Below, piece after piece: positions 14,421-32,017 of a stretch of 35,165 nt of DNA. The notes under the pieces were generated by a model, which saw only the letters and a list, made by a program, of their open reading frames with translations, ran no database searches and had not been told where the DNA came from. The stretch is from Minisyncoccota bacterium (GTDB lineage: Bacteria; Patescibacteriota; Minisyncoccia; Phycocordibacterales; UBA9973): assembly GCA_018062505.1 (NCBI GenBank), contig JAGOSA010000005.1:1-35165 (forward strand). Reading direction: 5' to 3'. The position numbers were made by a program, and so were the translations under genes. Every line of letters begins with the position of its first letter. Position 1 is the stretch's first letter.

Positions 14421-16493
14421 TTAATCTGTCTCCACAAGCCGATGTCGCAAAATCTTGAGCTCGTCGCGCAAAATCGCAGCAGTCTCGAAGTCGAGTGACT
14501 TCACGGCTTCTTTCATCTGATCTTCTTTCATCTTGATCAGCTCTTCAAGCGGATGCTTTTTGCCTTTCTTGCTCTTTTTGCCGAACTTCGAGGTTTCAAT
14601 CGAGCCAATGACCGAAAGATCCATTTCAAGCTCAGCGCGGACAGCTTTGTCGTGATCGCTTTCCATTGATTCGGCAATGTCGTGAATGCGCTTTTCAATA
14701 GTCTTTGGCGTAATGCCGTTTTCTTTGTTGTAAGCGAGCTGCTTGTCGCGGCGGCGATTTGTTTCGTCGATTGCGCGCTCCATAGATCCTGTAATCCGAT
14801 CAGCGTACAAAATGACGCGACCGTTGACGTTGCGGGCAGCGCGGCCGATCGTCTGAATGAGAGACACTTCACTGCGCAAAAAGCCTTCTTTGTCGGCGTC
14901 GAGAATACCGATCAATGAAACTTCCGGTAAGTCCAAACCTTCGCGGAGCAAGTTAACGCCAACGAGAATGTCGAAGTTGCCGCGGCGGAATTCCGTGAGA
15001 ATTTTGATTCGATCAATTGTTTTGATATCAGAATGCAAATATTCTGATTTTATTTTTCGCTCTTTCAAATATGCTGCAAGATCTTCAGCCATTTTTTTGG
15101 TAAGAGTCGTTGCAAGCACGCGACCACCAGCGCGAATTTCGCCTTCAGCTTCTTCGATGAAATCCTGCACCTGACCAAGATAGTCGCCTTCTTCAAGAAT
15201 TGGCTTAATCGTTATTTTCGGATCGATCAAACCTGTTGGGCGAATGATCTGTTCAACGATCTGTTCAGAATTGTCGCGCTCGAAGTTGCTCGGCGTTGCA
15301 GTTGTAAAAATGAGCTGGCCAATGCGCTCTTCGAATTCTTCGAACTTGAGCGGACGGTTATCTTTGGCGCTCGGCAAGCGGAAGCCGAATTCGACGAGCG
15401 TATTTTTGCGGGCTTGGTCGCCAGCGTACATGCCGTTAAGTTGCGGAATCGTAACGTGCGATTCGTCGATGATCGTCAAGAAGTCTGCACTACCGTCAGC
15501 TTTGTGAGGAAAATATGAAAGTAAAGTATCAGGCGGATCGCCAGCCATTTTGCCAGACAAGTGTCGTGAATAGTTTTCAATACCAGAGCAGTAGCCAACT
15601 TCGCGAATCATTGCTATGTCGTAGTTGGTGCGGCGGCGGAGACGTTCAGCTTCGAGCAATCTTCCCTCTTGCGACTCAAAAACTTTGAGCTGCTCTTCAA
15701 GTTCATGCTGAATACTTTTCAAAGCACGCTCAACCTGATCGCCGTCAGTTACGAAGTGTTTGGCTGGGAAAATGTAGACAACTTCTTCCTCTTTCAAAAT
15801 GCGAGACGTTACAGGATCAATTTTCAGCATGCGATTTACTGAATTGCCGACGAGATCAATAGAAAAAGTCACGGCTTCAGAAACCGGCATGATTTCGACT
15901 TTTGTTCCAAGCGCGCGAAATGTTCCCGGTGTAAGATCTGCATTGGTTCTTTCAAAGCGAATTGAAATCAATTTTTCCAAAAGTTCAGTGCGCGTCATTT
16001 TTTGCCCAACCTCAAGTTTCAAGTTTGTCTTTTCATATTCAGCCGGCGAACCGAGACCGTAGATACACGAAACCGAAGCCACAATGATCACGTCTTTGCG
16101 CGTCAAAAGCGACTGCGTTGAAGCGTGGCGCAAACGATCGATTTCTTTGTTGATGCTCGCATCCTTCTCTATATATGTATCTGTTACCGGCATATAGGCC
16201 TCCGGCTGGTAAAAGTCGTAGTAGGAAACAAAGTAGTGGACGGCATTGTCAGGGAAAAATTCCTTGAACTCAGCCGCGAGCTGAGCCGCGAGCGTTTTGT
16301 TGTGGGCAATGACGAGCGTCGGCTTGCCCTGAGCGGCGATGACGTTTGCCATCGTAAAAGTCTTGCCTGTACCGGTCGCACCCAAAAGGGTCTGCCTCTG
16401 CATACCCTTTTTCAGTCCTTCATTTATTTTCTTGATTGCTGCAGGCTGGTCGCCGGCTGGCTCAAATTTTGGCTGCAGGTTAAAAACTCCCAT
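14421..16493 (-). CDS. uvrB: Excinuclease ABC subunit B (690 aa)
   Basis: UvrB is the damage-verifying helicase-like subunit that receives DNA from UvrA and recruits UvrC. Walker A is GATGTGKT at 38-45. The damage-probing beta-hairpin begins with YYDFYQPEAYMP, the Walker B box is DESH, and helicase motifs V/VI (LREGLDLPEV, QTIGRAARN) are intact. The C-terminal UVR motif (about 650-685) that pairs with UvrC is present. Length is normal. The ATG at 16493 gives the usual N-terminus (FNLQPKFEPAGDQPAAI). TATAGA lies 8 nt upstream, so the leader is predicted to be very short or absent. Confidence 0.98.
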   Translation of the reverse strand: MGVFNLQPKFEPAGDQPAAIKKINEGLKKGMQRQTLLGATGTGKTFTMANVIAAQGKPTLVIAHNKTLAAQLAAEFKEFFPDNAVHYFVSYYDFYQPEAYMPVTDTYIEKDASINKEIDRLRHASTQSLLTRKDVIIVASVSCIYGLGSPAEYEKTNLKLEVGQKMTRTELLEKLISIRFERTNADLTPGTFRALGTKVEIMPVSEAVTFSIDLVGNSVNRMLKIDPVTSRILKEEEVVYIFPAKHFVTDGDQVERALKSIQHELEEQLKVFESQEGRLLEAERLRRRTNYDIAMIREVGYCSGIENYSRHLSGKMAGDPPDTLLSYFPHKADGSADFLTIIDESHVTIPQLNGMYAGDQARKNTLVEFGFRLPSAKDNRPLKFEEFEERIGQLIFTTATPSNFERDNSEQIVEQIIRPTGLIDPKITIKPILEEGDYLGQVQDFIEEAEGEIRAGGRVLATTLTKKMAEDLAAYLKERKIKSEYLHSDIKTIDRIKILTEFRRGNFDILVGVNLLREGLDLPEVSLIGILDADKEGFLRSEVSLIQTIGRAARNVNGRVILYADRITGSMERAIDETNRRRDKQLAYNKENGITPKTIEKRIHDIAESMESDHDKAVRAELEMDLSVIGSIETSKFGKKSKKGKKHPLEELIKMKEDQMKEAVKSLDFETAAILRDELKILRHRLVETD

Positions 16494-16501
16494 TTGTCCA
16501 T

Positions 16502-16507
16502 TCTATA
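16502..16507 (-). promoter_or_regulatory. Likely -10 box of uvrB (near-leaderless)
   Basis: TATAGA on the minus strand with 8 nt to the ATG, located just past the preceding gene's terminator. No TG extension and no convincing -35 box. Confidence 0.4.
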
Positions 16508-16518
16508 GATTTGGCAGA

Positions 16519-16542
16519 GAAAAAGCCACCTCATTCGGTGGC
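16519..16542 (-). terminator. Intrinsic terminator of the 112-aa gene
   Basis: Stem GCCACC (16525-16530) with GGTGGC (16537-16542), a 6-nt loop, and a T-run on the minus strand. It ends the 112-aa gene just before the uvrB promoter. Confidence 0.8.
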
Positions 16543-16574
16543 CTTTCTTGTTACTTCTTTCTAATTTGTTCTTT

Positions 16575-16913
16575 TTACTTCTCCGACGGAAATGCTAGCG
16601 CAAAGACATTTTTGAATGTTTCTTTGTCTTCACTGTTAATGTCGGCAAACATCTTGCTACCGCCTTCTGGCAGAAGCGGGACAATTTCTTTTCTTTTCGG
16701 AATAGTGTCTGTGGTACTGCCGGTGTAGACGATCTTGTAGCCATCGTCCTCTTCGGTAAAGTAGCCCATAATAGTGAGATTGGCTCCGAATTTTCGAATT
16801 CTATATTGGTGCGAATCGTATTCAAGCTCAACATTTTCGGTGGAGAAAATAGTTGCAGCTACTCCTGCCACCATCAGCAGCAAAATAACGGGAAGGTAGT
16901 ATGTTTTTTTCAT
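16575..16913 (-). CDS. Small secreted or membrane-anchored hypothetical protein (112 aa)
   Basis: The N-terminus has two lysines and a hydrophobic segment (about 6-22) that would be a signal peptide or anchor. The short remainder looks beta-rich, with YRIRKFGANLTIMGYF in the middle. The family is not recognised. A promoter with both boxes overlaps the end of the upstream DUF1653 gene and a terminator follows, so it is monocistronic. Confidence 0.7.
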   Translation of the reverse strand: MKKTYYLPVILLLMVAGVAATIFSTENVELEYDSHQYRIRKFGANLTIMGYFTEEDDGYKIVYTGSTTDTIPKRKEIVPLLPEGGSKMFADINSEDKETFKNVFALAFPSEK

Positions 16914-16956
16914 GGTATTTGGTTTTAGTAAGAATGGAAATAATGTGATTTCTCCA

Positions 16957-16984
16957 ACTATAACCGAAATTACTCTTTTGTAAA
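16957..16984 (-). promoter_or_regulatory. Promoter of the 112-aa gene
   Basis: -35 TTTACA (16979-16984, overlapping the DUF1653 coding end), a 16-nt spacer and -10 TATAGT (16957-16962) on the minus strand. The leader would be about 38 nt. Confidence 0.55.
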
Positions 16985-17245
16985 TCTTGGCCTCATTTTG
17001 CCATCGATTTCAACTTCATCGATAAAAAGCGAAAGCGGACGAGTAAACATAGTCGCATGAGTGCCGTCCAAAATGTCGGCATGATAGAGCGGCTTGTAGA
17101 CAATCATAATCGAATCAGGATCATCGATTTCCATTTCTATATTTTTGGCAATGCCGATAACTTCGTAGACATGATCCATTCCTCCGGTCGATTTGTAGTG
17201 GCGATAGTGCTCGCCTATTTGCGGGATACTGATTGCTGATTCCAT
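16970..17245 (-). CDS. DUF1653 domain protein (91 aa)
   Basis: The pattern is that of the small DUF1653 family: GEHYRHYK near the start, then YEVIGIAKN, a central IVYKPLY, MFTRPLSLF and a final RPRFTK. The biochemical role of the family is not known to me. The ATG at 17245 is selected because a perfect TGTTATAAT box lies 6 nt upstream and the previous terminator lies just beyond it. The longer in-frame extension would run through both. Cytoplasmic, no signal peptide. Confidence 0.82.
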   Translation of the reverse strand: MESAISIPQIGEHYRHYKSTGGMDHVYEVIGIAKNIEMEIDDPDSIMIVYKPLYHADILDGTHATMFTRPLSLFIDEVEIDGKMRPRFTKE

Positions 17246-17251
17246 TTGGGC

Positions 17252-17260
17252 ATTATAACA
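17252..17260 (-). promoter_or_regulatory. Extended -10 promoter, DUF1653 gene (leaderless)
   Basis: TGTTATAAT on the minus strand is a perfect extended -10, followed by 6 nt and the ATG. Transcription should begin at the start codon itself. Confidence 0.7.
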
Positions 17261-17269
17261 AAAGTGCAG

Positions 17270-17299
17270 CAAAAAAGTCCCGACATAAGCCGGGACTTT
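17270..17299 (-). terminator. Intrinsic terminator of the VWA gene
   Basis: Stem AAAGTCCCG (17274-17282) with CGGGACTTT (17291-17299), an 8-nt loop and a T-run on the minus strand. Confidence 0.87.
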
Positions 17300-17303
17300 C
17301 AAA

Positions 17304-18020
17304 TTACTGCTGCGCTCCAAGCTGGGCCATTTCTTTGACGAACAAAGAATAGTCATTGCCGAAATATCTTTTCGGATCGCTTGCTAGGTCACGCATAAAA
17401 TCTGGAGCCGATTCGCAACCGACTGCAGCAAGAATTGAAGAAATTCTAATTGTTGTAGTGTTGTCGAGCATTCCTTGAGCATACAGCTTTGCGCACATTT
17501 GATCTGTCGCTAATCCATCAGAAATAATGACAATATCACTGAGCGAGAGTGAATCATCTTGCGACTCGTAGGAAATGAGATCATCAATAAATGAAATGCC
17601 GGCGCACATGTACGATGCAGATGTATCATTGTTTTCTGCAGCAATACTAGATATGCCTTCATATAACAATTTCTTGTCGGCAGTAAGCGGGACAATCAGA
17701 GCAAATGTATCAGCAAATATCGACAAGCTGATGCGAACGCCATTATTACTGAGCGGAACATCATCAGCAAAAGCAGCCAATATTCGCTCAATATATTCAC
17801 GCGTTTTTTTGTTGCCAACACTTGAAGATTTGTCTACTAATATATAGACATTGCGATGGCTGTTGTTTTGCCAGTCTGCTTGAGGCAGATCGACTTGATC
17901 AACGTCGTCGAGAGTACTTAAATACTTCTCGGCATTTTGTTGCTGTTGGGCATTTACATGAATCGGCGCCGAAATGCTAATAGCTGCGGCACACAGGAGA
18001 GAGATGTATATTTTTTTCAT
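17304..18020 (-). CDS. Secreted von Willebrand factor A domain protein (238 aa)
   Basis: A signal peptide (hydrophobic core about 5-20, likely cleavage after VNA at 24) leads to a short linker and a single VWA fold. The metal-ion-dependent adhesion site is intact: D-x-S-x-S as DKSSS at 63-67, a threonine at 133 and Asp168 in ISDG. VWA domains bind protein partners through a metal ion. Here an extracellular binding or adhesion role is likely, but the partner is unknown. Three cysteines after residue 135 (139, 176, 202) may allow a disulfide. No membrane anchor or sorting signal is visible. An inverted repeat lies over the start codon. The stop is followed at once by a terminator. Confidence 0.85.
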   Translation of the reverse strand: MKKIYISLLCAAAISISAPIHVNAQQQQNAEKYLSTLDDVDQVDLPQADWQNNSHRNVYILVDKSSSVGNKKTREYIERILAAFADDVPLSNNGVRISLSIFADTFALIVPLTADKKLLYEGISSIAAENNDTSASYMCAGISFIDDLISYESQDDSLSLSDIVIISDGLATDQMCAKLYAQGMLDNTTTIRISSILAAVGCESAPDFMRDLASDPKRYFGNDYSLFVKEMAQLGAQQ

Positions 18021-18049
18021 AAGGAGTGGTTTTCCTTAGAGATTACTCC
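18020..18049 (-). other. Overlapping inverted repeats at the VWA gene start
   Basis: TAAGGA (18033-18038 on the minus strand) can pair with TCCTTA next to the ATG (18020-18025). AGGAGT (18044-18049) can pair with ACTCCT (18022-18027). The two hairpins share bases and exclude each other, and one would bury the only purine-rich tract upstream of the start. Confidence 0.35.
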
Positions 18050-18072
18050 TGTCTACCCTATTTAGCAAGATA

Positions 18073-19335
18073 TTACTTTGCGATATAGCGCCCAAGAAAT
18101 TGCACTTTAAAAGCAGCAAATGAATCCGCCATGATAGATGAGCGAATGTCTTTGACGAGATTGGCAATAAAGTAGAGGTTGTGAATTGTGCCGAGCGTTC
18201 CAGCGAGCATTTCTTTTGAGCGATAGAGGTGCGATAAATAAGCGCGTGTGTAGTTTTGGCATGTGTAGCAGCCGCAGTCGTCTTCGAGCGGAGCAAAATC
18301 TTCGCGGAATTGCGCATTCAAAATATTTACTTTGCCGCTCTTGGTGTAGAGCGTGCCATTGCGCGCATTGCGAGTCGGAGCAACGCAGTCAAACATGTCG
18401 ACGCCGTTTTCAACGCCCATAAATAAATCTTCAGGCTCGCCAATGCCAAGCAAGTGCCGTGGCTTATCTTCGGGTAAAATATCGTTGACCCATTTTACAG
18501 CTGACGACATATCTTCTTTGGCAAATGATCCGCCGATGCCGAAGCCATCAAAAGTTTTTTCGCCTACTTTCATTTCAGAAATAATTTTTGCCGACTCTTT
18601 GCGCAGTGATTCGTTGCGGCCGCCTTGTACAATACCAAAGAGTGCGATTTGGTTTACTTCGTTTTCATTATTTTTTGATTGGGCGTTTTTTATTTTTTCA
18701 CTGCTGAGTTTTACATGTTCTTCCAAACATCGTTTCGCCCAAGCATGCGTTCGCATGAGAGCATCGCTCTGGTAGCGATCGTCTTCAGCGGGTGACGTGC
18801 ATTCATCAAAAGCAAAAATAATATCAGCGCCGAGGTTGTGCTGAATCTGAATTGATTTTTCTGGCGAAATGTAATGCATCGAGCCATCGAGGTGCGACTT
18901 AAAAGAAACGCCATCGCGATCAATCGTCGCAAGCTTTGGCGCATCGCTGTCGTCAAAGCGTTCTGGAATCATCAGAGATGGATCTGTAATTTTGACGACT
19001 TTAGAAATCTCTTTGCCGTAGGCCGCGCCAAGAGAAAAAACTTGGAAGCCGCCCGAGTCAGTGACGATCGGCTTGTGCCAATTCATAAACTTGTGGAGAC
19101 CACCGGCTTTTGCCACGAGCTCATCGCCAGGCTGCAAAAATAAATGGTAAGTGTTTGCGAGCACTGCCTGCGCACCGAGTTCGTTGACCTGCTCAGGAGT
19201 GAGTGCCTTGATTGTGGCTTTTGTGCCGACAGGAATAAATGCCGGCGTCAAAATATCGCCATGCGGAGTGTGGATTCTGCCTGCGCGGCCAAGACCGCTC
19301 ATCTTCTTATTAATTTCAAAATTAAATTTATTCAA
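18073..19335 (-). CDS. tgt: tRNA-guanine (queuine) transglycosylase (420 aa)
   Basis: Tgt swaps guanine 34 of GUN-anticodon tRNAs for a 7-deazaguanine. Visible motifs are TPAFIPVGT (30-38), the substrate loop DSGGFQVF (93-100), FGIVQGG (233-239), the catalytic region GVDMFDCVAPTRNARNG (311-327) and a zinc site CxCxxC...H (Cys354, Cys356, Cys359, His385). Two insertions relative to the usual bacterial enzyme are apparent, one of about 25-30 residues after SLGA (about 105-140) and one before the IVQGG motif (about 208-227). The start codon is TTG (19333-19335), 6 nt after mreC, and gives the expected N-terminus. No other queuosine gene is in the window. Confidence 0.96.
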   Translation of the reverse strand: MNKFNFEINKKMSGLGRAGRIHTPHGDILTPAFIPVGTKATIKALTPEQVNELGAQAVLANTYHLFLQPGDELVAKAGGLHKFMNWHKPIVTDSGGFQVFSLGAAYGKEISKVVKITDPSLMIPERFDDSDAPKLATIDRDGVSFKSHLDGSMHYISPEKSIQIQHNLGADIIFAFDECTSPAEDDRYQSDALMRTHAWAKRCLEEHVKLSSEKIKNAQSKNNENEVNQIALFGIVQGGRNESLRKESAKIISEMKVGEKTFDGFGIGGSFAKEDMSSAVKWVNDILPEDKPRHLLGIGEPEDLFMGVENGVDMFDCVAPTRNARNGTLYTKSGKVNILNAQFREDFAPLEDDCGCYTCQNYTRAYLSHLYRSKEMLAGTLGTIHNLYFIANLVKDIRSSIMADSFAAFKVQFLGRYIAK

Positions 19336-19341
19336 TGTATT

Positions 19342-20157
19342 TTATTTCTCCACCCCCACAAACCTAAGCTCAAAAATATTCACCGGAGATCGAAATAACA
19401 CTCTCTGAAATGGATCGCGCGAATCGGCCAAACTTTCTTCGGCAAAAGCGATTGTTTCGCCACTATCGACAGTCGCAACTGTTGTCCCTTTTTCGATAAC
19501 AATGTCGCGCGGCAATGTCGTTTCAAATGTGCCGCCGCCTTGGCCTTTTAAATCTATGAAAATATCTTTGCCAACAATAACGGCTTTTGTGACTTCACCT
19601 GACGTTGAGAATAATTTTATCTTGGCTGAATGCTGATCTGCTTCTGCTACAGTTCCGATCGGCGTGTCGCCGCGCGCGAGAACTTTTGCGCCGACAACAA
19701 TTCCCTCTTCCGTCCCAGTATCGACAACAATCGTGTCATATATAGACTCGCTTGGCTTAATCAAAATGCGCGCCATGATTAGCTGAATGCCTTCTTTTTT
19801 GCGTGCCAGCATTTCTGTAAGCTTTGCATTTTCGTCGAGCAGCGTCGGGAGAGCGGCAAGCTTGGCTTCAAGATCTTTTACTTTCTCATCAAGTTCGCTT
19901 TTCTCATTGATCAATGTGCTTTTTGATTTTGAAAGTTCAAGTCCGTCACTGATTCCCTGCCCAGCCGAGCGCTTTACTTTAAATATAGAGTTGCCGACGC
20001 TTGCGATAGCAGACATCGTTTGCTTTGGGCCGACAGCCACGAAGAAAATACCGACAATAATAATAACAACTGCAAGAACGCCAACGATCCGCTTTCTGTA
20101 GCTGCGGAAGTTTCGATCTCTGTATGAAATAAATTTATTTTGATCTCTCCGTATCAT
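19342..20157 (-). CDS. mreC: Rod shape-determining protein MreC (271 aa)
   Basis: MreC links the MreB filament to the extracytoplasmic wall-synthesis machinery. The order of parts is as expected: a basic cytoplasmic N-terminus, one membrane helix (about 23-44), a coiled coil (about 75-118), then a beta-rich domain with DTIVVDTGTEEGIVVGAKV and the pattern TPIGTV. Length is normal. The gene overlaps the end of mreB by 23 nt, so the two are translated from one mRNA. mreD is not next to it; tgt follows instead. Confidence 0.94.
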   Translation of the reverse strand: MIRRDQNKFISYRDRNFRSYRKRIVGVLAVVIIIVGIFFVAVGPKQTMSAIASVGNSIFKVKRSAGQGISDGLELSKSKSTLINEKSELDEKVKDLEAKLAALPTLLDENAKLTEMLARKKEGIQLIMARILIKPSESIYDTIVVDTGTEEGIVVGAKVLARGDTPIGTVAEADQHSAKIKLFSTSGEVTKAVIVGKDIFIDLKGQGGGTFETTLPRDIVIEKGTTVATVDSGETIAFAEESLADSRDPFQRVLFRSPVNIFELRFVGVEK

Positions 20158-21359: not shown

Positions 21360-21422
21360 ATGAAAAAGTATGAAGTTATTTTGTTGCATGTGGGGTGCGC
21401 GATTGCTATAAAGATTCAGTGA
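21360..21422 (+). CDS. Possible 20-aa leader peptide before the GH26 gene (doubtful)
   Basis: ATG at 21360 opens a 20-codon frame whose TGA stop overlaps the GTG start of the glycosidase gene (bases 21419-21422 read GTGA). The peptide is hydrophobic. A TTGACA at 21291 with a weak TACTCT 16 nt later could drive it. The alternative is that this stretch only holds the leaderless promoter at 21404. The TGA stop, unused by confident genes here, weakens the case. Confidence 0.2.
   Translation: MKKYEVILLHVGCAIAIKIQ
21404..21412 (+). promoter_or_regulatory. Extended -10 promoter, GH26 gene (leaderless)
   Basis: TGCTATAAA followed by exactly 6 nt and a GTG start. TTGCAT at 21384-21389 gives a 17-nt spacer and may serve as -35. 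Confidence 0.55.
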
Positions 21423-22786
21423 AAAAGAAAATTTTAGTATCGTTATCGAGTTTCGTTGCTCTTTGTTTAATTATCGGAGCAATATCAATTATTAAAAAAC
21501 CAATTATTATTGCTAATGTCGAAGCGGACGCGACCACACAAGGAATCGTCATGGGCGAAATGGCCATGAACGTAGACGTGCCGAGCTGCGAAGACGAAAA
21601 TGGCGCTGCTGCTGATTGTTTCCCAATCATCAGCGGAGTAAACGCTAGCAGTCAGGCCGCAGATATCGAACTTGCCTGGAAAAGAATGTATAAACACAAA
21701 TCAAATACAACTACCACAACACCAAAAACAACTATCCCGACAACTCCAATCACTTCCACTCCAAAACCTGTCACACCAATACCAACGACAGCTCCAACTA
21801 AACCTGTAGCAACAACGCCAACAATTCCGACAACTCCCATCATTGCAACAACACCGATAATTCCAAAAACACCAGTTGCCACACCACCGGCAACTCCCGC
21901 AGTCCCTGCTCCAACGCAACCAATCGTCGTTACAAATAAACAGTGGGGCGCATTTTTGCCAAATAGCTCAACGGCAGATATCGCAACACTCGAATCGAAA
22001 GTCGGTTCGCCAATGGATATACGCGCAGTCTTCGTCGGCTGGGGCAATGGCGCTTCTGACTTTCCAAGCTGGCTCACTGGCAACATTAAATCATCTGGCA
22101 AAACGCTTTTGATGTACTGGGAACCGGCAGCAAATGGCGACACCGGAAATATCAACCAGCCAGCATACAACTACGACTCAATCACGAGCGGCAAATGGGA
22201 TAGTTCTATCATCGCTTTTGCGAAAGCCGCAAAAACGTATGGCGGACCGATCATCCTTGTTCCATTCGACGAAATGAATGGCGACTGGTATCCATGGTCT
22301 GGAACGAACAACGGAAATTCCCCTGCTAAGCACAATGCCGCATATAAACATCTCCACGATCTTTTTGCCGCACAAGGTGTGACAAACGTAAAGTGGGGCT
22401 GGGCTCCGAACAATGATTCGTGGCCAAATACACCAGCAAACGATTTGACTATGTACTACCCAGGAGATGCATATGTCGACTATGTTGGCGTCGACGGATT
22501 CAACTTCAATAGCCCATGGATTTCGTACAACCAAATCTTCGACAAGGCAATTGCAAAGCTCGAGAAATACAATAAACCAATTTACATTTTCTCGATGGCT
22601 TCAGGCGAAGCTGGTGATGGCGGAGCAAAGAAAGCCGCATGGATTGCAGACACATTTGCGCAGATCGCCAAAAATCCAAAGATTGCTGGCTGGATCTGGT
22701 TCAACGAAAATAAAGAAAAAAATTGGCTGCTCGATTCTTCTACTTCAGTTCTCAAAGCATTCTCTATTGCAGTCAAAAGTTTCTAG
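21419..22786 (+). CDS. Secreted GH26-like glycoside hydrolase with Thr/Pro linker (455 aa)
   Basis: Start GTG at 21419 is chosen because it follows the extended -10 box by 6 nt and gives a clean signal: KKK, then a hydrophobic core (about 5-28). A Thr/Pro-rich linker (about 96-165) leads to a (beta/alpha)8-type catalytic domain (about 175-455). ILVPFDEMNGDWYPW (about 280-294) matches the GH26 acid/base motif with Glu285. IAGWIWFNENKEKNWLLDSS near the end is also family-like. GH26 enzymes mostly cut beta-mannans and related beta-glycans. Where the nucleophile strand is expected (PIYIFSMASGEAGDGG) the usual Glu position appears to be Ser or Met, with Glu397 four or so residues later. Activity is therefore uncertain. 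It converges with the polysaccharide deacetylase gene. Confidence 0.82.
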   Translation: MKKKILVSLSSFVALCLIIGAISIIKKPIIIANVEADATTQGIVMGEMAMNVDVPSCEDENGAAADCFPIISGVNASSQAADIELAWKRMYKHKSNTTTTTPKTTIPTTPITSTPKPVTPIPTTAPTKPVATTPTIPTTPIIATTPIIPKTPVATPPATPAVPAPTQPIVVTNKQWGAFLPNSSTADIATLESKVGSPMDIRAVFVGWGNGASDFPSWLTGNIKSSGKTLLMYWEPAANGDTGNINQPAYNYDSITSGKWDSSIIAFAKAAKTYGGPIILVPFDEMNGDWYPWSGTNNGNSPAKHNAAYKHLHDLFAAQGVTNVKWGWAPNNDSWPNTPANDLTMYYPGDAYVDYVGVDGFNFNSPWISYNQIFDKAIAKLEKYNKPIYIFSMASGEAGDGGAKKAAWIADTFAQIAKNPKIAGWIWFNENKEKNWLLDSSTSVLKAFSIAVKSF

Positions 22787-22788
22787 TA

Positions 22789-22819
22789 AAAATAAAACCC
22801 CTTTGCGGGGTTTTATTTT
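22789..22819. terminator. Bidirectional intrinsic terminator
   Basis: Stem AATAAAACCCC (22791-22801) with GGGGTTTTATT (22807-22817), a 5-nt loop and T-rich flanks. It is shared by the convergent GH26 and deacetylase genes. Confidence 0.9.
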
Positions 22820-22850
22820 TTGCTAATCTTTTTTTAATAGAAAACTAATA

Positions 22851-25073
22851 CTAGTTTGCTACGCAGCTGAGAGCATTGATCTTTGCGCGAGTAAGCGTAA
22901 AGACATTGCCGTTTCCTTTTGTGAGCTTAACAGGAGTAAGGATTTCTGACTTGTACTTCATCTGGAAATTCTTGACTGCTGACAATGTCATCGTGCCGTA
23001 GAATCCAGTAACTGGAAGCTTGGCATTCATGTGCTTGTTCAAGAAAGCCTGAAGCTTTTTGACGTCTTCAACTTTGTTCTTGCCGTTATGGAAAGAAATG
23101 TTGTTAACGATAATTGCATTACATGTTGAGCCGAGAACTGAGCCGGGAGTTGTTGGTGTGACTGGAGTAACAGGAACAACAGGAACTACTGGAACGTATG
23201 AGCCGCCACCTGAGCTGCCGCCTCCACCGCCACCGCCTCCACCACTATTGCTATTGCCCTGAACGACAACAGTTCGAGTAACAGTTGTTGCTACTCCGCC
23301 ATTTGAGTCAGTGACTGTGTAAGTGATTGGATATGTATTTGCAGTATTTGTGTCGACTGAGCCTGTGCGGACAATCGATGCAGTGATGTCGCCATCTTCA
23401 GCATCTGTTGCTGTTGCGCCAGCGTCAGTGTATGTGCTTCCAAGTGTAAGCGTTACTGTCTCATTGCCGTTGAGTGTGATAACTGGAATTGTATTTTCAG
23501 TTGGAACTGCTGTGACTGTAACTGTTCGAGTTACTGTTGGAGCATTGTTGCCTGCAGCGTCTGCGACGTTGTAGCTGACGACATATGTTCCGGCAACAGT
23601 AGTATTGATGACTGCACCAGTCGCAACGATTGATGATGTAAGGTTACCGTCAACATTATCTGTTGCTGTTGCGCCTGCATCTGTGTATGAAGTTCCTGCA
23701 ACGATGCTCATTGTCGCATCGCCATTGAGGACAATAACTGGAGCAAGCGTATCGAGTGGATCAACTGGATCGACTGTAGAATTCGCCATTTCTGGAAGAA
23801 CACTTGTAACAGTCATAACGCGAATAGGATTTGTTGCACCGTCGCGAACTGCCTTGATGTGATCAATAATGATCTGGAAATTTTCTGGAGTAACGCCACC
23901 CTCATCATTGTTTGCCTGAAGTTCATCAAGTGGAGCAACTTGGTGGAAGGTCAAAATGAGCCAAGTCTTGTTTGTTGCTGCACTATCGATCCAACCCAAG
24001 ATTGTTGCCATTGGAACTGTCGTATCGACAACTTGTGTCTTGAGAGCATACTTGTCGCTGAAGCGAGTGTTGAAGCCTGCATCGATTGAACGAGCAGCGC
24101 TTGCATTTGATGCCATGACGTTCTTGATGCTGTCATTGTAGCCACCATTTGGGTAAGCAAAAGTTGAGATCATATAGCCGAGTGACGTGAGCGCATTCTT
24201 TGAACCCTGAATTTCATTTTCGACTGTTGTCGTTCCGCCTTCTGGAGCGAATGCACAACTTGTCACAGAAGGAAGGAGCGTCAAATTACAGTGGTTGATT
24301 GTATGGCCGCCGATTTCATTGTTATCTGCCTGAAGTTCAGAAAGTTGCGAAGCTGTCATGTAGCCGAATTCATTGTTGAGCGTAGTGCCTGACATAACGT
24401 AGTAGCTCGCTTTCATCCCTGCTGTTGAAAGGATTGGGCTTGCGGCTGTGTACTGGTTGAGCCAGCCATCATCAAAAGTAACAGAAACGATACCTGTTGA
24501 GAATTGATTTTCGTTAGCAGTATTGAGCTGAGCGAGAGAGTAGTTGTCAGTTGTCAATTCGCCAACACCTTTGAGCATATGGAGAACTGAAACTGAAACA
24601 GTGCCAGCTGGCGGAGTGAAATCCATAGTACCTGTTGTCCATGTTGCAGAAGGAGAAACTACAGCAATCTGTTCATATGTTGGAGGTGTATTTGCATATG
24701 TATATTCGGCAAAGAGATATGTCGTCGCGTCTGACTTGTAGCTGTTTGAAAAGCGATACAAAGAACCAGCTTCAACTGGAACTGGAGTGAAGTACCATTT
24801 TGCATCACCATCTATGTAATCCGTAATTGCAACTTTGATTGCTTTTGAACCACCATCATCGACATATGTATATACCGCAGTATTTTGACTAGGTGCTCCG
24901 TGACTCCAGCCTGTTGGAGTAGGTGTGCCGTCTTCCTGAAGATATGAAGCTTCAAGGTCAGCATTACCGATAAGGTTTGGGCCGACAGCTTTAACAGTAA
25001 AAATACCTGCTGCGAGTGTGAAAACTGCAAGCGAGGCGACGATGAATGTTTTTGTAAAAATGTTTTTTTTCAT
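22851..25073 (-). CDS. Secreted multidomain polysaccharide deacetylase (740 aa)
   Basis: A signal peptide (about 1-29) is followed by a carbohydrate-binding-like beta-sandwich (about 32-182) and a NodB-type deacetylase domain (about 193-425). The metal-dependent deacetylase motifs are present: TFDDG (199-203), the His pair in GHTINH (256-261), FAYPNGGY (305-312) and LTFHQV (374-379). Two DUF5011-type Ig-like repeats (about 443-522 and 528-604) act as spacers, then a Gly/Ser and Pro/Thr linker, and a C-terminal peptidoglycan-binding-like domain (about 660-735, with VKKLQAFLN and GFYGTMTLSAVKNFQ). It would remove N-acetyl groups from a surface hexosamine polymer or peptidoglycan while held at the wall. 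It is third in the GT2 unit, 65 nt after the 161-aa gene. Confidence 0.92.
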   Translation of the reverse strand: MKKNIFTKTFIVASLAVFTLAAGIFTVKAVGPNLIGNADLEASYLQEDGTPTPTGWSHGAPSQNTAVYTYVDDGGSKAIKVAITDYIDGDAKWYFTPVPVEAGSLYRFSNSYKSDATTYLFAEYTYANTPPTYEQIAVVSPSATWTTGTMDFTPPAGTVSVSVLHMLKGVGELTTDNYSLAQLNTANENQFSTGIVSVTFDDGWLNQYTAASPILSTAGMKASYYVMSGTTLNNEFGYMTASQLSELQADNNEIGGHTINHCNLTLLPSVTSCAFAPEGGTTTVENEIQGSKNALTSLGYMISTFAYPNGGYNDSIKNVMASNASAARSIDAGFNTRFSDKYALKTQVVDTTVPMATILGWIDSAATNKTWLILTFHQVAPLDELQANNDEGGVTPENFQIIIDHIKAVRDGATNPIRVMTVTSVLPEMANSTVDPVDPLDTLAPVIVLNGDATMSIVAGTSYTDAGATATDNVDGNLTSSIVATGAVINTTVAGTYVVSYNVADAAGNNAPTVTRTVTVTAVPTENTIPVITLNGNETVTLTLGSTYTDAGATATDAEDGDITASIVRTGSVDTNTANTYPITYTVTDSNGGVATTVTRTVVVQGNSNSGGGGGGGGGSSGGGSYVPVVPVVPVTPVTPTTPGSVLGSTCNAIIVNNISFHNGKNKVEDVKKLQAFLNKHMNAKLPVTGFYGTMTLSAVKNFQMKYKSEILTPVKLTKGNGNVFTLTRAKINALSCVAN

Positions 25074-25138
25074 AAATGTTTGCTAAATGATAATTGCTAA
25101 TTCGTAATTAATAATGAATCGATTGTGATAATGAATAA

Positions 25139-25624
25139 TTAATGTTCGTACGTCAGCTGAACTTTGTGGGTATACAAGCTGATGTATGGGCTTGATCTAT
25201 CTGAAAAGAATCGGTATGGAATGTAGAGATCATCTGAGACTTTCGTTTCTGGTATTGCTCGGTTTGGCTCAGGAGCGGGTGGCGATGGAATCTTGATGTT
25301 TTTGATTGCGGCACTGACGGTATGAGCTGTCTTGTCTGCAACTTTCCAGTTTGCATATTTGTCGTCGATCGCTCGGCCGACAAACATGACAACGAGCCAG
25401 CCCATGTAAACGCCGACGAGCAAGATAACGATGACCGAAGCAAATGCTTGCTTGCGGACATGCTTCTTGTTGAAGATTGCCGGACCTTCTAGTGCATTAA
25501 GTGCTTTTGTTTGAATGATTGAATTTGCAGCTGGTGCATTCTCAAAACCAAACAAAGCCAAAATCTTTCGGACAATGACGATGAGTGCGTGTATGACAAA
25601 TGTGAGGCCTGTTGGAGGTGTCAT
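25139..25624 (-). CDS. Small two-helix membrane protein of the polysaccharide unit (161 aa)
   Basis: No family is recognised by sequence. Hydrophobic segments lie at about 6-25 and 62-88, with a charged stretch between them. The last 70 residues contain a proline-rich run (IPSPPAPEPNRAIPE) and are probably outside the membrane. It begins 5 nt after the GT2 synthase stop, so the two are almost certainly cotranscribed and may form a complex. By position it resembles the small accessory subunits (PgaD, IcaD) of poly-N-acetylglucosamine synthases, but this rests on context and topology, not on homology. Confidence 0.72.
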   Translation of the reverse strand: MTPPTGLTFVIHALIVIVRKILALFGFENAPAANSIIQTKALNALEGPAIFNKKHVRKQAFASVIVILLVGVYMGWLVVMFVGRAIDDKYANWKVADKTAHTVSAAIKNIKIPSPPAPEPNRAIPETKVSDDLYIPYRFFSDRSSPYISLYTHKVQLTYEH

Positions 25625-25629
25625 ATAAA

Positions 25630-26646
25630 TTAGATATTCACTCGCTCTGGATGGAACCAGACGAGATTTTTCTTATTAAAGACGACCTCTTTTATTCCCT
25701 GTTCCAAGAAAACAAAAGCGTTGACGTAGATCATGAAAGGGTAAATGAATGGAACATACAGGATATCATATCGCTTCTCCTTAATAGAGGCAGCAATAGC
25801 GAATAGCATATTAAATGCGATATTACCTATGAGGAACAAAATTGCAAGCCGGAGGTTAACGATCGGCAATACGAAAAGGAATATTGAAAACAGTATTCCT
25901 TCAATATAGATGAGTGACATTTCGAGCGCACGGTTAGGGCTTGAGATAATAACACGGAAATGTTTCTTGAGACTTTGCCAGCCGCCGCCATACCAGCGTC
26001 GCATTTGGTTTTTGTACTCTGGCAAGCTGATTGGATCCTGTGTGTAGGAAATAGCATCGAGCGTGTAGGCAATCTTGAAACCAAACTTGTGAAGCTTGTA
26101 CGTAATGTCGAGGTCTTCTGTCAGCGTATCGTGCTCAAATGGCAAATACTCGCGGAATGTTTTTGTGCGGAAAGCGCCTGCTGCACCTGAGATGACAAAG
26201 ATGTAATCAAGGTAGCTCTGCGCAAGCTTGTGGAAGTAGTGAGCGACAATGTATTCGAAAGCTCGAACAGCAGTGAGCCAATTGTATGGCAAACTTTTGA
26301 CGATGCCTGAAACAGCGACAACTTTTTCATCCTGAAAGGCTTTTTCCATTGCAGCAGCAAATCCAGTGTTGAGTTTTGTATCGCCATCTGTCGCAACAAA
26401 AACGTCGCCAGTAACGAGTGGCAAACCTTTTTCTTGGGCGCGGCTTTTGTTGCCTGTCGCCTTTTCAATAGTGAGCACGTCAATCTTGTCGCCAAATGAC
26501 GCCAAGATTTCGCCGCTTTTATCAGTCGAACCGTCATTGATGACCAAGATCTGGTCAAATGGCCGTGTCTGAGTAAGACAAGACTCCACGCAAGCGCGGA
26601 TTGACTTCTCTTCATTGTGACATGGTATGACGACGCTGATTTTCAT
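25630..26646 (-). CDS. Membrane-bound family 2 glycosyltransferase, processive type (338 aa)
   Basis: GT2 fold with a complete processive-synthase signature: NDGSTD (37-42), TDGD (86-89), SGAAGAF (153-159), TED (176-178) and QMRRW (214-218). The QxxRW motif is typical of synthases that make and export a chain (NodC, hyaluronan, cellulose and poly-GlcNAc synthases). Three hydrophobic C-terminal segments (about 243-262, 264-290, 296-315) anchor it. The N-terminal helices of PgaC-type enzymes are missing, and the next gene may compensate. It heads a unit with the 161-aa protein and the deacetylase, driven by a promoter whose leader carries a terminator-like hairpin. Confidence 0.92.
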   Translation of the reverse strand: MKISVVIPCHNEEKSIRACVESCLTQTRPFDQILVINDGSTDKSGEILASFGDKIDVLTIEKATGNKSRAQEKGLPLVTGDVFVATDGDTKLNTGFAAAMEKAFQDEKVVAVSGIVKSLPYNWLTAVRAFEYIVAHYFHKLAQSYLDYIFVISGAAGAFRTKTFREYLPFEHDTLTEDLDITYKLHKFGFKIAYTLDAISYTQDPISLPEYKNQMRRWYGGGWQSLKKHFRVIISSPNRALEMSLIYIEGILFSIFLFVLPIVNLRLAILFLIGNIAFNMLFAIAASIKEKRYDILYVPFIYPFMIYVNAFVFLEQGIKEVVFNKKNLVWFHPERVNI

Positions 26647-29904: not shown

Positions 29905-31143
29905 TTACCTCCATGCCGTCTTTTTGGCAAATATGGTGTTATAGACAGCTTTTAAGAGCCATAGTGGCGCAATGACGCTATAGATGGCGAAAAACCAGAG
30001 GTAATTGAGAGAGAATTTTGGGCGTCCTTCTGCCATGCGGCTGCCGATAAGCATAGCGAGGATGACAGTACTATAGAGCGTAATGACAACGATATTCATA
30101 GCTTGCGTATTCAAATAGAACGGATCGAAAAGGTGCGCTGGCCAAGTAAAAGTGAGCCCGACTGTAGAAATCCTGACTGTTTGCTCAACAATAAAGTTGA
30201 ATAGCTTATAAACTGAGAAAAAGAAAATAAAGCAAACAGAAATGACAGATAGGACACCGGACGGCACTGTGAAGAAAGCGAAATTGCCGAACTCTTTTTT
30301 GAAAAGGAGATGGCGGTAGTCGATTGTATTTTGGATGAAGCCGTAGATCCAGCGAAGACGTTGCTTGTAGAGTTTTTTGACTGTGTTTGGCGTAACAGTA
30401 TAAACGAAAGCATCGTTCGCGTGTTCAATCTTCATGTGATTCGCCTGCATGCGGTAAGCGATTTCCATATCTTCAGTATTGTGGGCCGAGCGGAAGTTGC
30501 CGATCTTAGCAAAAACCTGCGTGCGGAAAATAGAAAAAGGTCCAGGCGCCACGTGGATGGCATTGTTGAGGCCGAGCATTTTCTTTGTGTAAATTGCCCA
30601 GTGGTATTCGATCTTTTGGATGCGTTGAATGAGATTTTTTGGCTTTGTGACGATAATCGCAGGAGCAACAGCCATAACTTCTTGATTGTCGAAATAGGTC
30701 ATGATGCGCTTGAGAGCCTGTGGGTCAACGAAAGAGTCAGCGTCGAGACAGCCAACAAAGTCAGTTGTTGTTTTTTCAATACCGAGGTTCATAGCAGTGT
30801 GCTTACCGCCATTTTCTTTTGTGTAAGCAGTAATCTGCGGATGACCAACATAGTGCTGCATGACATTCCACGTATTGTCAGTCGAGCCGTCGTCGACGAG
30901 GATAATATTTACTTTGTCGCTTGGGTAGTCGAGAGCAAGCAAGGATTCGATTGTGCCGCCGATTGTCGTTTCTTCATTCCAGCAAGGCACAATAACCGTC
31001 ACAGACGGGTAGGTTTTGAGGTCGATTGGACCTTTTCGGTATTTGATTTCCTTTCTGCGCTCTATAAAGGTGACTAACAAGAAGATTTGGACGTAGATAG
31101 ACAGAAAGGAGAGGCCATAAAAGACAATTTCCTGGATTTGCAT
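29905..31143 (-). CDS. Membrane-bound family 2 glycosyltransferase (412 aa)
   Basis: A GT2 synthase with N-terminal helix (about 5-27), catalytic domain and several C-terminal helices (about 288-320, 348-368, 378-402). The motifs are DDGSTD (84-89), LDAD (133-136), GPFSIFR (201-207), TED (223-225) and QRLRW (261-265). The QxxRW motif marks the processive or membrane-exporting class. It is closer to full PgaC/NodC topology than the GT2 at 25630-26646. The start at 31143 follows TGGTATATT by 10 nt; the upstream in-frame extension would run through that promoter. The thioredoxin-like gene follows. The sugar donor and product are unknown. Confidence 0.9.
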   Translation of the reverse strand: MQIQEIVFYGLSFLSIYVQIFLLVTFIERRKEIKYRKGPIDLKTYPSVTVIVPCWNEETTIGGTIESLLALDYPSDKVNIILVDDGSTDNTWNVMQHYVGHPQITAYTKENGGKHTAMNLGIEKTTTDFVGCLDADSFVDPQALKRIMTYFDNQEVMAVAPAIIVTKPKNLIQRIQKIEYHWAIYTKKMLGLNNAIHVAPGPFSIFRTQVFAKIGNFRSAHNTEDMEIAYRMQANHMKIEHANDAFVYTVTPNTVKKLYKQRLRWIYGFIQNTIDYRHLLFKKEFGNFAFFTVPSGVLSVISVCFIFFFSVYKLFNFIVEQTVRISTVGLTFTWPAHLFDPFYLNTQAMNIVVITLYSTVILAMLIGSRMAEGRPKFSLNYLWFFAIYSVIAPLWLLKAVYNTIFAKKTAWR

Positions 31144-31153
31144 GATCGAGAAC

Positions 31154-31162
31154 AATATACCA
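31154..31162 (-). promoter_or_regulatory. Extended -10 promoter, second GT2 gene (near-leaderless)
   Basis: TGGTATATT on the minus strand, 10 nt before the ATG, so the leader is about 3 nt. Confidence 0.55.
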
Positions 31163-31195
31163 CAAAAGCGGCTTTTTCTCAATGGGGAGAAGGGA

Positions 31196-31204
31196 TGCTA
31201 TACT
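31196..31204 (+). promoter_or_regulatory. Extended -10 promoter, DsbA-like gene (leaderless)
   Basis: TGCTATACT followed by exactly 6 nt and the ATG at 31211. It diverges from the second GT2 promoter 34 nt away. Confidence 0.65.
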
Positions 31205-31210
31205 TCTGGC

Positions 31211-32017
31211 ATGGAAAATTCACAACAGAAGCGAAATATTGTGCCTTTATTCATCTTGCTCGTCGTCGTGGGCGGATTAATTGCTGCTTTTTACAAACCT
31301 GCTGCAAAAACAGCCTCGGATGACACGCTTGGGGCTTCCGCTCTCACATCAATTACTACGGGCATCGCGCCAATTGTTCCGGCGGATGATTCAACTACTT
31401 TTGAAACATTCTGCCAGACTACATGGCCTGGAAGTGAAGGTAAGACTGCAGTGCCAAATGTCCCAGGATACGCAGAGGGCGAACATTACTGCGGCAACCC
31501 TGATGCAAAAGTGATTATTGTGGAATACACAGATTTTGAATGTCCTTACTGCAAGCAATTTCATCCAACGCTCCAAAAGCTTGTCTATGAAAGCAATGGC
31601 CAGATCGGCTGGGTTCTCCGACACTACCCTATCGATGGTCTCCACGAGCGGGCGCGTCATGAAGCAGAAGCTGCTGAGTGCGCAGCAGAACAGCAAGGCG
31701 AAATTGGCTTCTGGAAATATGCCGACAAGATTTTTGAAGTAACATCGTCAAATGATTCTCTGTCGCCTTCTCTTTTGCCATTGATTGCGAAAGACCTCGG
31801 TCTCGATCGTGCTGCATTTGAAACATGTTTGGCGAGCGGCAAATACTTGCCAAAGATCGCAGCTCAAGAAGCTCTCGCTGAAGCAAATGGCCACGGCCCA
31901 ATCGGCACGCCAAATTCACGCATCATCATGAACGGCAAAGAAGTTGAAGAAGTGAGCGGCGCTGTGGACTACAATACGCTCAAGGCGAAGACTGATTTGT
32001 GGTTGAAGGCGGACTAA
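31211..32017 (+). CDS. DsbA-like thiol:disulfide oxidoreductase, membrane-anchored (268 aa)
   Basis: A signal anchor (about 10-27) and a linker of about 60 residues precede a DsbA-type thioredoxin fold. The active site CPYC (111-114) follows YTDFE, and GTPNSRI (232-238) supplies the cis-proline. A helical insertion between them is as in the DsbA/BdbD family. The cysteines at 68 and 94 in the linker and at 157 and 206 in the fold may form extra disulfides. It would introduce disulfides in secreted proteins; the Cys-rich giant surface protein is a plausible client. The start at 31211 is set by the promoter 6 nt upstream. No operon partner on this strand. Confidence 0.9.
   Translation: MENSQQKRNIVPLFILLVVVGGLIAAFYKPAAKTASDDTLGASALTSITTGIAPIVPADDSTTFETFCQTTWPGSEGKTAVPNVPGYAEGEHYCGNPDAKVIIVEYTDFECPYCKQFHPTLQKLVYESNGQIGWVLRHYPIDGLHERARHEAEAAECAAEQQGEIGFWKYADKIFEVTSSNDSLSPSLLPLIAKDLGLDRAAFETCLASGKYLPKIAAQEALAEANGHGPIGTPNSRIIMNGKEVEEVSGAVDYNTLKAKTDLWLKAD

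Follow-up and report, generated by a model that had tools for sequence, protein, structure and literature searches.

In the pga and ica systems a GT2 polysaccharide synthase is accompanied by a small membrane partner and a CE4 deacetylase, and pga also has a glycosidase domain. Hyaluronan synthase is a single-protein synthase with N-terminal helices. The partners PgaD and IcaD are non-homologous, yet both are required for glycosyltransferase function (PMC7112194). Clostridial cellulose synthase has a cognate glycosidase on an N-terminal membrane anchor, the GH5 protein CcsZ, an active endoglucanase that keeps both catalytic Glu residues (PMC7710045). GH26 enzymes also use two Glu residues (PMC6556568), and a GT2 and a GH26 gene occur together in the wps-1 exopolysaccharide cluster of Actinoplanes missouriensis, which belongs to the Wzx/Wzy pathway (PMC13390465). 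Here we describe a four-gene locus in a 35,165-nucleotide stretch of DNA from a Minisyncoccota bacterium (GCA_018062505.1, contig JAGOSA010000005.1, positions 1 to 35,165; hereafter the window) that encodes a GT2 synthase, a two-helix membrane protein, a NodB-type deacetylase and a GH26-like protein with an altered active site, designated GH26-S. The cassette resembles pga/ica in its first three components and wps-1 in its GT2-GH26 pairing, but appears synthase-dependent rather than Wzx/Wzy-dependent. Unlike pga/ica, its GT2 lacks N-terminal helices, its partner has no family match, and GH26-S replaces the PgaB hydrolase domain; unlike CcsZ, GH26-S has not retained both catalytic Glu residues. 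The cassette would work like pga/ica but is not a member of that group as judged by sequence. No description of such a cassette, or of a nucleophile-less GH26 protein in Patescibacteria, was found in searches of open-licence literature.

The locus lies between rpsB/tsf-like and mreB-like genes (named by eye from their translations) on a contig (C17) of a 671 kb genome that is 79.5% complete. A preliminary description of the window had given the coordinates and spacings of the four genes and a shared terminator, and these held up. Reading frames and sequence agree with the gene positions, with 5 nucleotides between the GT2 and small-protein genes and 65 between the latter and the deacetylase gene; GH26-S starts at a GTG codon at 21419, where the list of open reading frames (ORFs) puts the start at 21395. 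Between the convergent GH26-S and deacetylase genes either strand can fold into a hairpin (-19.9 and -17.9 kcal/mol, z -5.2 and -5.6); it was absent from the output of a consensus terminator scan. Both other genomes of the genus that were examined carry the identical four genes in the identical order (3/3 with the window), indicating that the locus is more than a chance arrangement. Identities to the window in these two genomes were 91 and 87% for GT2, 73 and 59% for the deacetylase, 72 and 66% for the GH26-like protein and 54 and 47% for the small protein, making GT2 the slowest and the small protein the fastest evolving of the four.

The cassette is real, conserved and rare, and is found in scattered lineages of Patescibacteria. 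A GT2 profile search of 148 relatives listed 22 genomes at E <=1e-30; six genomes scored at least 456.9 bits, with nothing between there and 128 bits. Strong GH26 matches (best per genome at least 256 bits) fell in the same six of the 148 genomes, a coincidence with a chance probability of about 5e-7 when counted by genus (the six genomes represent 4 of 83 genera). The GH26 matches of two further genomes were weak (53 and 39 bits) and have Glu at the nucleophile position. In an even sample of 379 genomes of the phylum the GT2 ortholog was present in five (at least 481 bits; next 212). A scan of named genomes, in which 80 loci were kept and the neighbourhoods of the first 10 were read, added seven strong GT2 loci from outside the genus at 49-59% identity (Vogel-, Shapiro-, Taylor-, Magasanik-, Zambryski- and Portnoybacteria and one other bacterium) plus a Pacebacterium locus (L064) at 40%, the next of the matches listed being at 35%. 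The ortholog was thus found in 17 distinct genomes, excluding the distant Pacebacterium, with a top identity of 81% outside the genus trio. As 7 of the 21 inner branches of the GT2 tree are open, no order of descent and transfer is claimed. The helix partner adjoins GT2 in 16 of the 17 genomes and the deacetylase comes next in 13, while in three the adjacent long surface protein is truncated by the end of the contig. GH26-S lies in the same stretch as GT2 in 10 and elsewhere in the genome in two (G128 and the genome of L061). In G192, which gave no GH26-S match, a GH18 gene with an intact DGIDLDFE motif lies beside the GT2 ortholog and is convergent with the deacetylase gene, and GH18 genes also stand beside the more distant GT2-deacetylase sets L064, L158 and L160. 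GH18 and GH26-S are not mutually exclusive, because GH18 was found in 3 of the 13 ortholog genomes searched (G128, G192 and the genome of L061).

GH26-S belongs to the GH26 family by sequence (Glyco_hydro_26, PF02156; 49.1 bits, cut-off 20.2) and by its (beta/alpha)8 fold, the TIM barrel beginning at about residue 165 after an N-terminal membrane stretch and a Thr/Pro-rich linker. Both the sequence and the model (mean predicted local distance difference test score, pLDDT, 77.9) are closest to the lichenase CtLic26A (GH26, PDB 2bv9/2bvd), on which the model superimposes with Z 33.3 over 267 residues (root-mean-square deviation 1.8). The two proteins share the acid/base Glu and an NGDWYPW segment, and Trp293 and much of the cleft are retained in GH26-S. 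However, Glu222 of Lic26A (chain numbering), which we take to be the catalytic nucleophile, is Ser392 in GH26-S according to a gap-free alignment of the nucleophile strand (KPIIIAEFAS in Lic26A, KPIYIFSMAS in GH26-S); Tyr185 is replaced by Phe and His108 by Asp. This loss of the nucleophile is new beyond the preliminary description, in which the protein had been labeled a GH26 hydrolase, a label that the active site does not bear out. Ser occupies the nucleophile position, and the acid/base Glu is retained, in 15/15 S-type copies (14 aligned and the fifteenth, L199, read by eye). The Tyr185 position is Phe in 14/14 S-type copies; 19 of the 23 Glu-type rows have Tyr there, and the acid/base Glu is present in all aligned rows of both types. 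The Glu-type rows comprise Lic26A and 21 distinct genes, one gene being counted twice (a further row, L183, did not align and was left out); thus the nucleophile Glu is kept in 21 distinct other patescibacterial GH26 homologs. The nucleophile residue is itself what defines the two groups; what is informative is that they track the cassette: all 15 S-type copies come from genomes that have the GT2 ortholog, and three of them are outside the GT2 stretch (G002 contig 31, G128 and the genome of L061). One Glu-type copy does lie within a cassette locus (L059, 15831-16790). It shares that Shapirobacteria locus (14828-19917) with two Ser-type copies, which brings the GH26 homologs there to three, and the neighbouring deacetylase has two NodB domains.

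With Ser in place of the nucleophile and Phe in place of the neighbouring Tyr in every aligned copy, GH26-S is not expected to perform the normal retaining GH26 double displacement. No conserved carboxylate that could substitute for the nucleophile was found; the acidic residues around Ser392 of the window copy are not conserved. An adjacent Asp-Glu pair, which is a feature of GH20 enzymes, was considered as a general GH26-S active site and rejected, as the residue preceding the acid is Asp in 7, His in 3, Ser in 2, Glu in 1 and Pro in 1 of 14 copies. Among the fold matches of GH26-S was an engineered GH26 glycosynthase (Cellvibrio Man26A mutant, PDB 1odz), in which the nucleophile is replaced and the acid/base residue kept; that change was made in the laboratory, whereas the change in GH26-S is natural and occurs in every copy of the type.

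The GT2 protein, a GT-A domain followed by three membrane helices, matches several Pfam GT2 families (best 85.9 bits) and has all the processive-GT2 motifs, D, DxD, TED and QxxRW, the last of which we take to be the mark of processive GT2 enzymes. The motif residues D38, D87/D89, E177 D178, Q214 and R216 R217 W218 are invariant in 13/13 aligned orthologs. An AlphaFold2 model (pLDDT 83.6, nine sequences) has membrane helices at residues 237-263, 265-290 and 293-322, after the QxxRW helix, and hydropathy gave two hydrophobic stretches, both C-terminal. Neither the model nor hydropathy gave N-terminal membrane helices such as those of PgaC and hyaluronan synthase; alignment, model and hydropathy therefore agree with the preliminary description of a QMRRW-containing GT2 that lacks them. 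A fold search with the model returned hyaluronan synthases first (template-modelling score, TM, ~0.78-0.79 over the query), followed by chitin synthases. The nearest solved folds, those of CvHAS and XlHAS1, have only 14-18% sequence identity to the protein. The best NCBIfam model was PgaC/IcaA (TIGR03937), at 123 bits against a cut-off of 422.3.

The 161-residue partner has no family match in Pfam and two hydrophobic stretches by hydropathy, residues 1-19 (weak, 1.41) and 64-82 (2.81). Conservation among 11 partners is highest in helix 1, in which M1, P3 and G6 are invariant and T2, L7 and H12 are at least 90% conserved. The helix-1 motif is short: a proline, one or more residues, Gly, a hydrophobic residue and Ser/Thr. 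Its His is replaced by Asn in L061, L063 and L157. The partner is a single gene in 11 of the 17 ortholog genomes, two genes in three and a deacetylase fusion in two, with none seen in one. In the split form (L059, L063 and L157) a micro-ORF of 26-33 residues with the helix-1 motif precedes a one-helix protein. In L154 a 27-residue helix-1 micro-ORF is followed by helix 2 fused to the deacetylase, and in L156 both helices are fused to it (helix1-helix2-deacetylase), as they likewise are in the distant Pacebacterium. Note that the micro-ORFs are small and that their coding status rests solely on position and motif. The loop between the helices has more K/R than D/E in 10/11 intact partners, which suggests that the loop is inside and the tail outside the cell; fusion of helix 2 to the deacetylase agrees with this, because the deacetylase is expected to be outside. 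None of the 11 partners matched PgaD or IcaD in Pfam searches up to E 10, although short membrane proteins are poorly detected. By analogy the protein may be a third non-homologous glycosyltransferase partner after PgaD and IcaD; an unrelated third partner would fit, since those two are unrelated to one another and both required.

A small-protein profile found five of the 148 genomes at E <=0.01, three of them the genus members, each with the match beside GT2, and the other two weak (15.5 and 14.7 bits). Of 16 matches at the same threshold in the 379 phylum genomes, the window's own and that in G192, which adjoins the GT2 ortholog, covered the helix-1 end. The remaining 14 lie elsewhere, mostly over the hydrophobic stretch of helix 2. 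Hence neither search produced a convincing copy of the protein away from GT2 genes, in line with the preliminary pairing of the two.

The deacetylase is a CE4/NodB protein (Polysacc_deac_1, 59.4 bits; cut-off 23.1) that scored only 20.6 bits with the IcaB model (TIGR03933, cut-off 248). The Ig-like spacers and wall-binding domain ascribed to it were recovered by Pfam as two Bact_surface_Ig-like stretches and PG_binding_1. Among 12 NodB-type cassette deacetylases scanned, the CE4 motifs are intact in 11 as far as the sequence runs, and one has TFDNG. In 7 of the 12, more than 150 residues separate CE4 motifs 1 and 2. A recurring module without a Pfam match, NLIxNPSxE ... GDAKWYF, occurs at residues 30-185 of the window protein and in L058, L059, L060 and L062; a similar module can sit between the two motifs. 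In the window's own genome a further NodB-type deacetylase (L010, contig C13, 5423-7609, minus strand) comes after repeated GDAKW-type modules, and its contig of 9.8 kb showed no GT2. Long surface proteins follow the helix partner in L052 (2405-5887), L060 (8347-13026) and L061 (11686-15153). By eye their start resembles what we take to be a sugar-dehydrogenase-type propeller, followed by Ig-like and GDAKW modules.

We consider it somewhat probable that the locus is a compact synthase-dependent extracellular-polysaccharide cassette, most likely for an N-acetylhexosamine polymer that is handled by the altered GH26-S. From its motifs and fold, GT2 would polymerise a nucleotide sugar on the inner side of the membrane, threading the chain outward. 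As PgaC, IcaA and hyaluronan synthase have N-terminal helices that GT2 does not, we propose that the two-helix partner sits with GT2 and probably completes its membrane part, the two helices lying at the chain exit and completing the channel there. The deacetylase, tied to the membrane or wall, would take acetyl groups off the emerging chain. The natural fusions of the helices to the deacetylase argue for a single exit site at which both would act. From a deacetylase acting on the chain it would follow that the polymer is most likely an N-acetylhexosamine chain that becomes partly deacetylated and cationic. Outside the cell the polymer would be handled by GH26-S (or GH18), which may either cleave it by means of the substrate's own acetamido group and the retained acid Glu or solely bind the chain. 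The attachment to a host suggested in the preliminary description is a speculative role for such a polymer.

Several observations weigh against this reading. No helix partner was in view in G253. In G334 there is no deacetylase within 10 kb of GT2, the sole Polysacc_deac_1 match being ~18 kb away. GH26-S was not found by genome search in 5 of the 17 genomes (G153, G192, G334, L062 and L065), so the co-occurrence of the four genes that had been anticipated is complete within the genus but partial outside it. Partners outside the genus are only 13-20% identical, their likeness consisting of position, two helices and the short motif. The nearest solved relative of GH26-S is a beta-glucanase, which favours a glucan over an N-acetylglucosamine (GlcNAc) polymer, and we infer rather than observe the sugar and its linkage. 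Finally, no MurA/EPSP_synthase-family match was found in the three genus genomes (79-87% complete), so that a wall supply of UDP-GlcNAc is not to be assumed and the GlcNAc reading stays conjectural. These genomes (G000, G001 and G002) do have mreB-like genes and the PG_binding_1 domain.

A different account of the synthase is that it transfers single sugars to a surface glycolipid or glycoprotein, the deacetylase and GH26-S acting on other glycans such as a neighbour's wall. We regard this as unlikely. It would accommodate the mere three membrane helices, none N-terminal, in the model, an archaeal mannosyltransferase among the fold matches (6yv7, TM 0.66), the presence of MftF and others at lower scores in NCBIfam, the occurrence of QxxRW also in non-polymerising families and the PG_binding_1 domain of the window deacetylase. 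However, hyaluronan and chitin synthases head the fold matches when these are ranked by E-value, no NCBIfam model scores higher than PgaC_IcaA, although its cut-off is not reached, and the tight linkage of GT2 to its helix partner and the deacetylase extends over distant lineages. That the locus is simply a diverged pga/ica system is very unlikely. The four roles are the same and 123 bits with PgaC_IcaA is the top NCBIfam score, and by analogy the preliminary statement that the functions are those of pga/ica stands. Nevertheless, scores far below the cut-offs for GT2 (422) and for the deacetylase (20.6 of 248), a GT2 that lacks N-terminal helices and the lack of a PgaD match among the 11 partners up to E 10 mean that, by sequence, membership has already failed.

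That GH26-S is a dead glycosidase, its membrane-anchored barrel serving as a polymer-binding anchor that holds the chain at the cell, is a serious possibility which we place a little short of probable. Loss of the nucleophile in 15/15 copies and of the nearby Tyr in 14/14 fits such a role, as do the N-terminal membrane stretch and long linker of the window copy, but a protein that only binds could dispense with the acid, and the acid/base Glu (15/15), Trp293 and much of the cleft are kept. The same retained Glu, together with a deacetylase as cassette partner, would suit activity on N-acetylated chains by substrate-assisted catalysis with Glu285 as the acid. GH18 enzymes use substrate-assisted catalysis, and an intact GH18 stands beside GT2 in G192, which has no GH26-S match, and in three more distant sets. 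Substrate assistance is nonetheless rather doubtful: no conserved residue to orient the acetamido group was identified, the acid is preceded variously by Asp, Ser, His, Glu or Pro, and the Tyr has become Phe. Quite unlikely, in our estimate, is the more elaborate proposal that GH26-S is a natural counterpart of the glycosynthases, or a substrate-assisted GH26: having lost the nucleophile, it would have given up cutting its own polymer by the GH26 route and would instead cleave, transfer or attach N-acetylated chains on their way out of a novel three-part synthase, the gap in whose channel is filled by a separable micro-protein helix.

Coordinates of the cassette genes, their domains and key residues in the window
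Feature	Position	Strand	Basis
GH26-like protein (GH26-S)	21419..22786	+	reading frames, Pfam, alignment, model
Glu285, acid/base Glu109 of CtLic26A	22271..22273	+	alignment
Phe361, Tyr in most other GH26 proteins (Lic26A 185)	22499..22501	+	alignment
Ser392 (TCG), Glu222 in Lic26A	22592..22594	+	alignment
Bidirectional terminator-like hairpin between convergent genes	22784..22826	both	folding
Deacetylase, 740 residues, secreted or membrane-anchored	22851..25073	-	Pfam, hydropathy
PG_binding_1 domain, residues 669-707	22953..23069	-	Pfam, 33 bits (cut-off 23)
Two Ig-like domains, residues ~445-604	23262..23741	-	PF16403 (Bact_surface_Ig-like), two stretches
NodB/CE4 domain, residues 192-405; TFDDG, HTINH, AYPNG, FH	23859..24500	-	Pfam, motifs
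Two-helix partner, 161 residues, no Pfam family	25139..25624	-	Pfam, hydropathy, position
Helix 2 of partner, residues ~62-86, polar tail after	25367..25441	-	hydropathy
Helix 1 of partner, its most conserved part	25565..25624	-	alignment of 11
GT2 polysaccharide synthase, 338 residues	25630..26646	-	Pfam, invariant motifs, model, fold search
Three C-terminal membrane helices, GT2 residues 237-322	25681..25938	-	AlphaFold2 model
QMRRW motif (QxxRW), GT2 residues 214-218	25993..26007	-	ortholog alignment

Elsewhere in the window, a second GT2 with membrane stretches at its N- and C-terminal ends (29905-31182, minus strand) is nearer PgaC/IcaA (183 bits, cut-off 422). It is followed by a 230-residue protein, whose thioredoxin-like match is weak, and faces a DsbA-like gene at 31142-32017. 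A secreted VWA-domain protein (Pfam; 17304-18020, minus strand) lies close to a gene resembling tRNA-guanine transglycosylase. Upstream of the Zambryskibacteria cassette (L063, 5113-6201) is a secreted protein that by eye has the look of a glycosidase-type barrel.

Patescibacteria are believed for the most part to live on other cells, and the polymers that coat them are poorly known. A cassette recognisable in at least 17 genomes provides a concrete target for the study of patescibacterial surface polymers. The nucleophile loss, seen only in genomes with the GT2 ortholog, is an experiment of nature that may show how the fold of a retaining glycosidase comes to change its function, and the split and fused forms of the helix partner provide a test of whether processive synthases can build a membrane channel from separate pieces.

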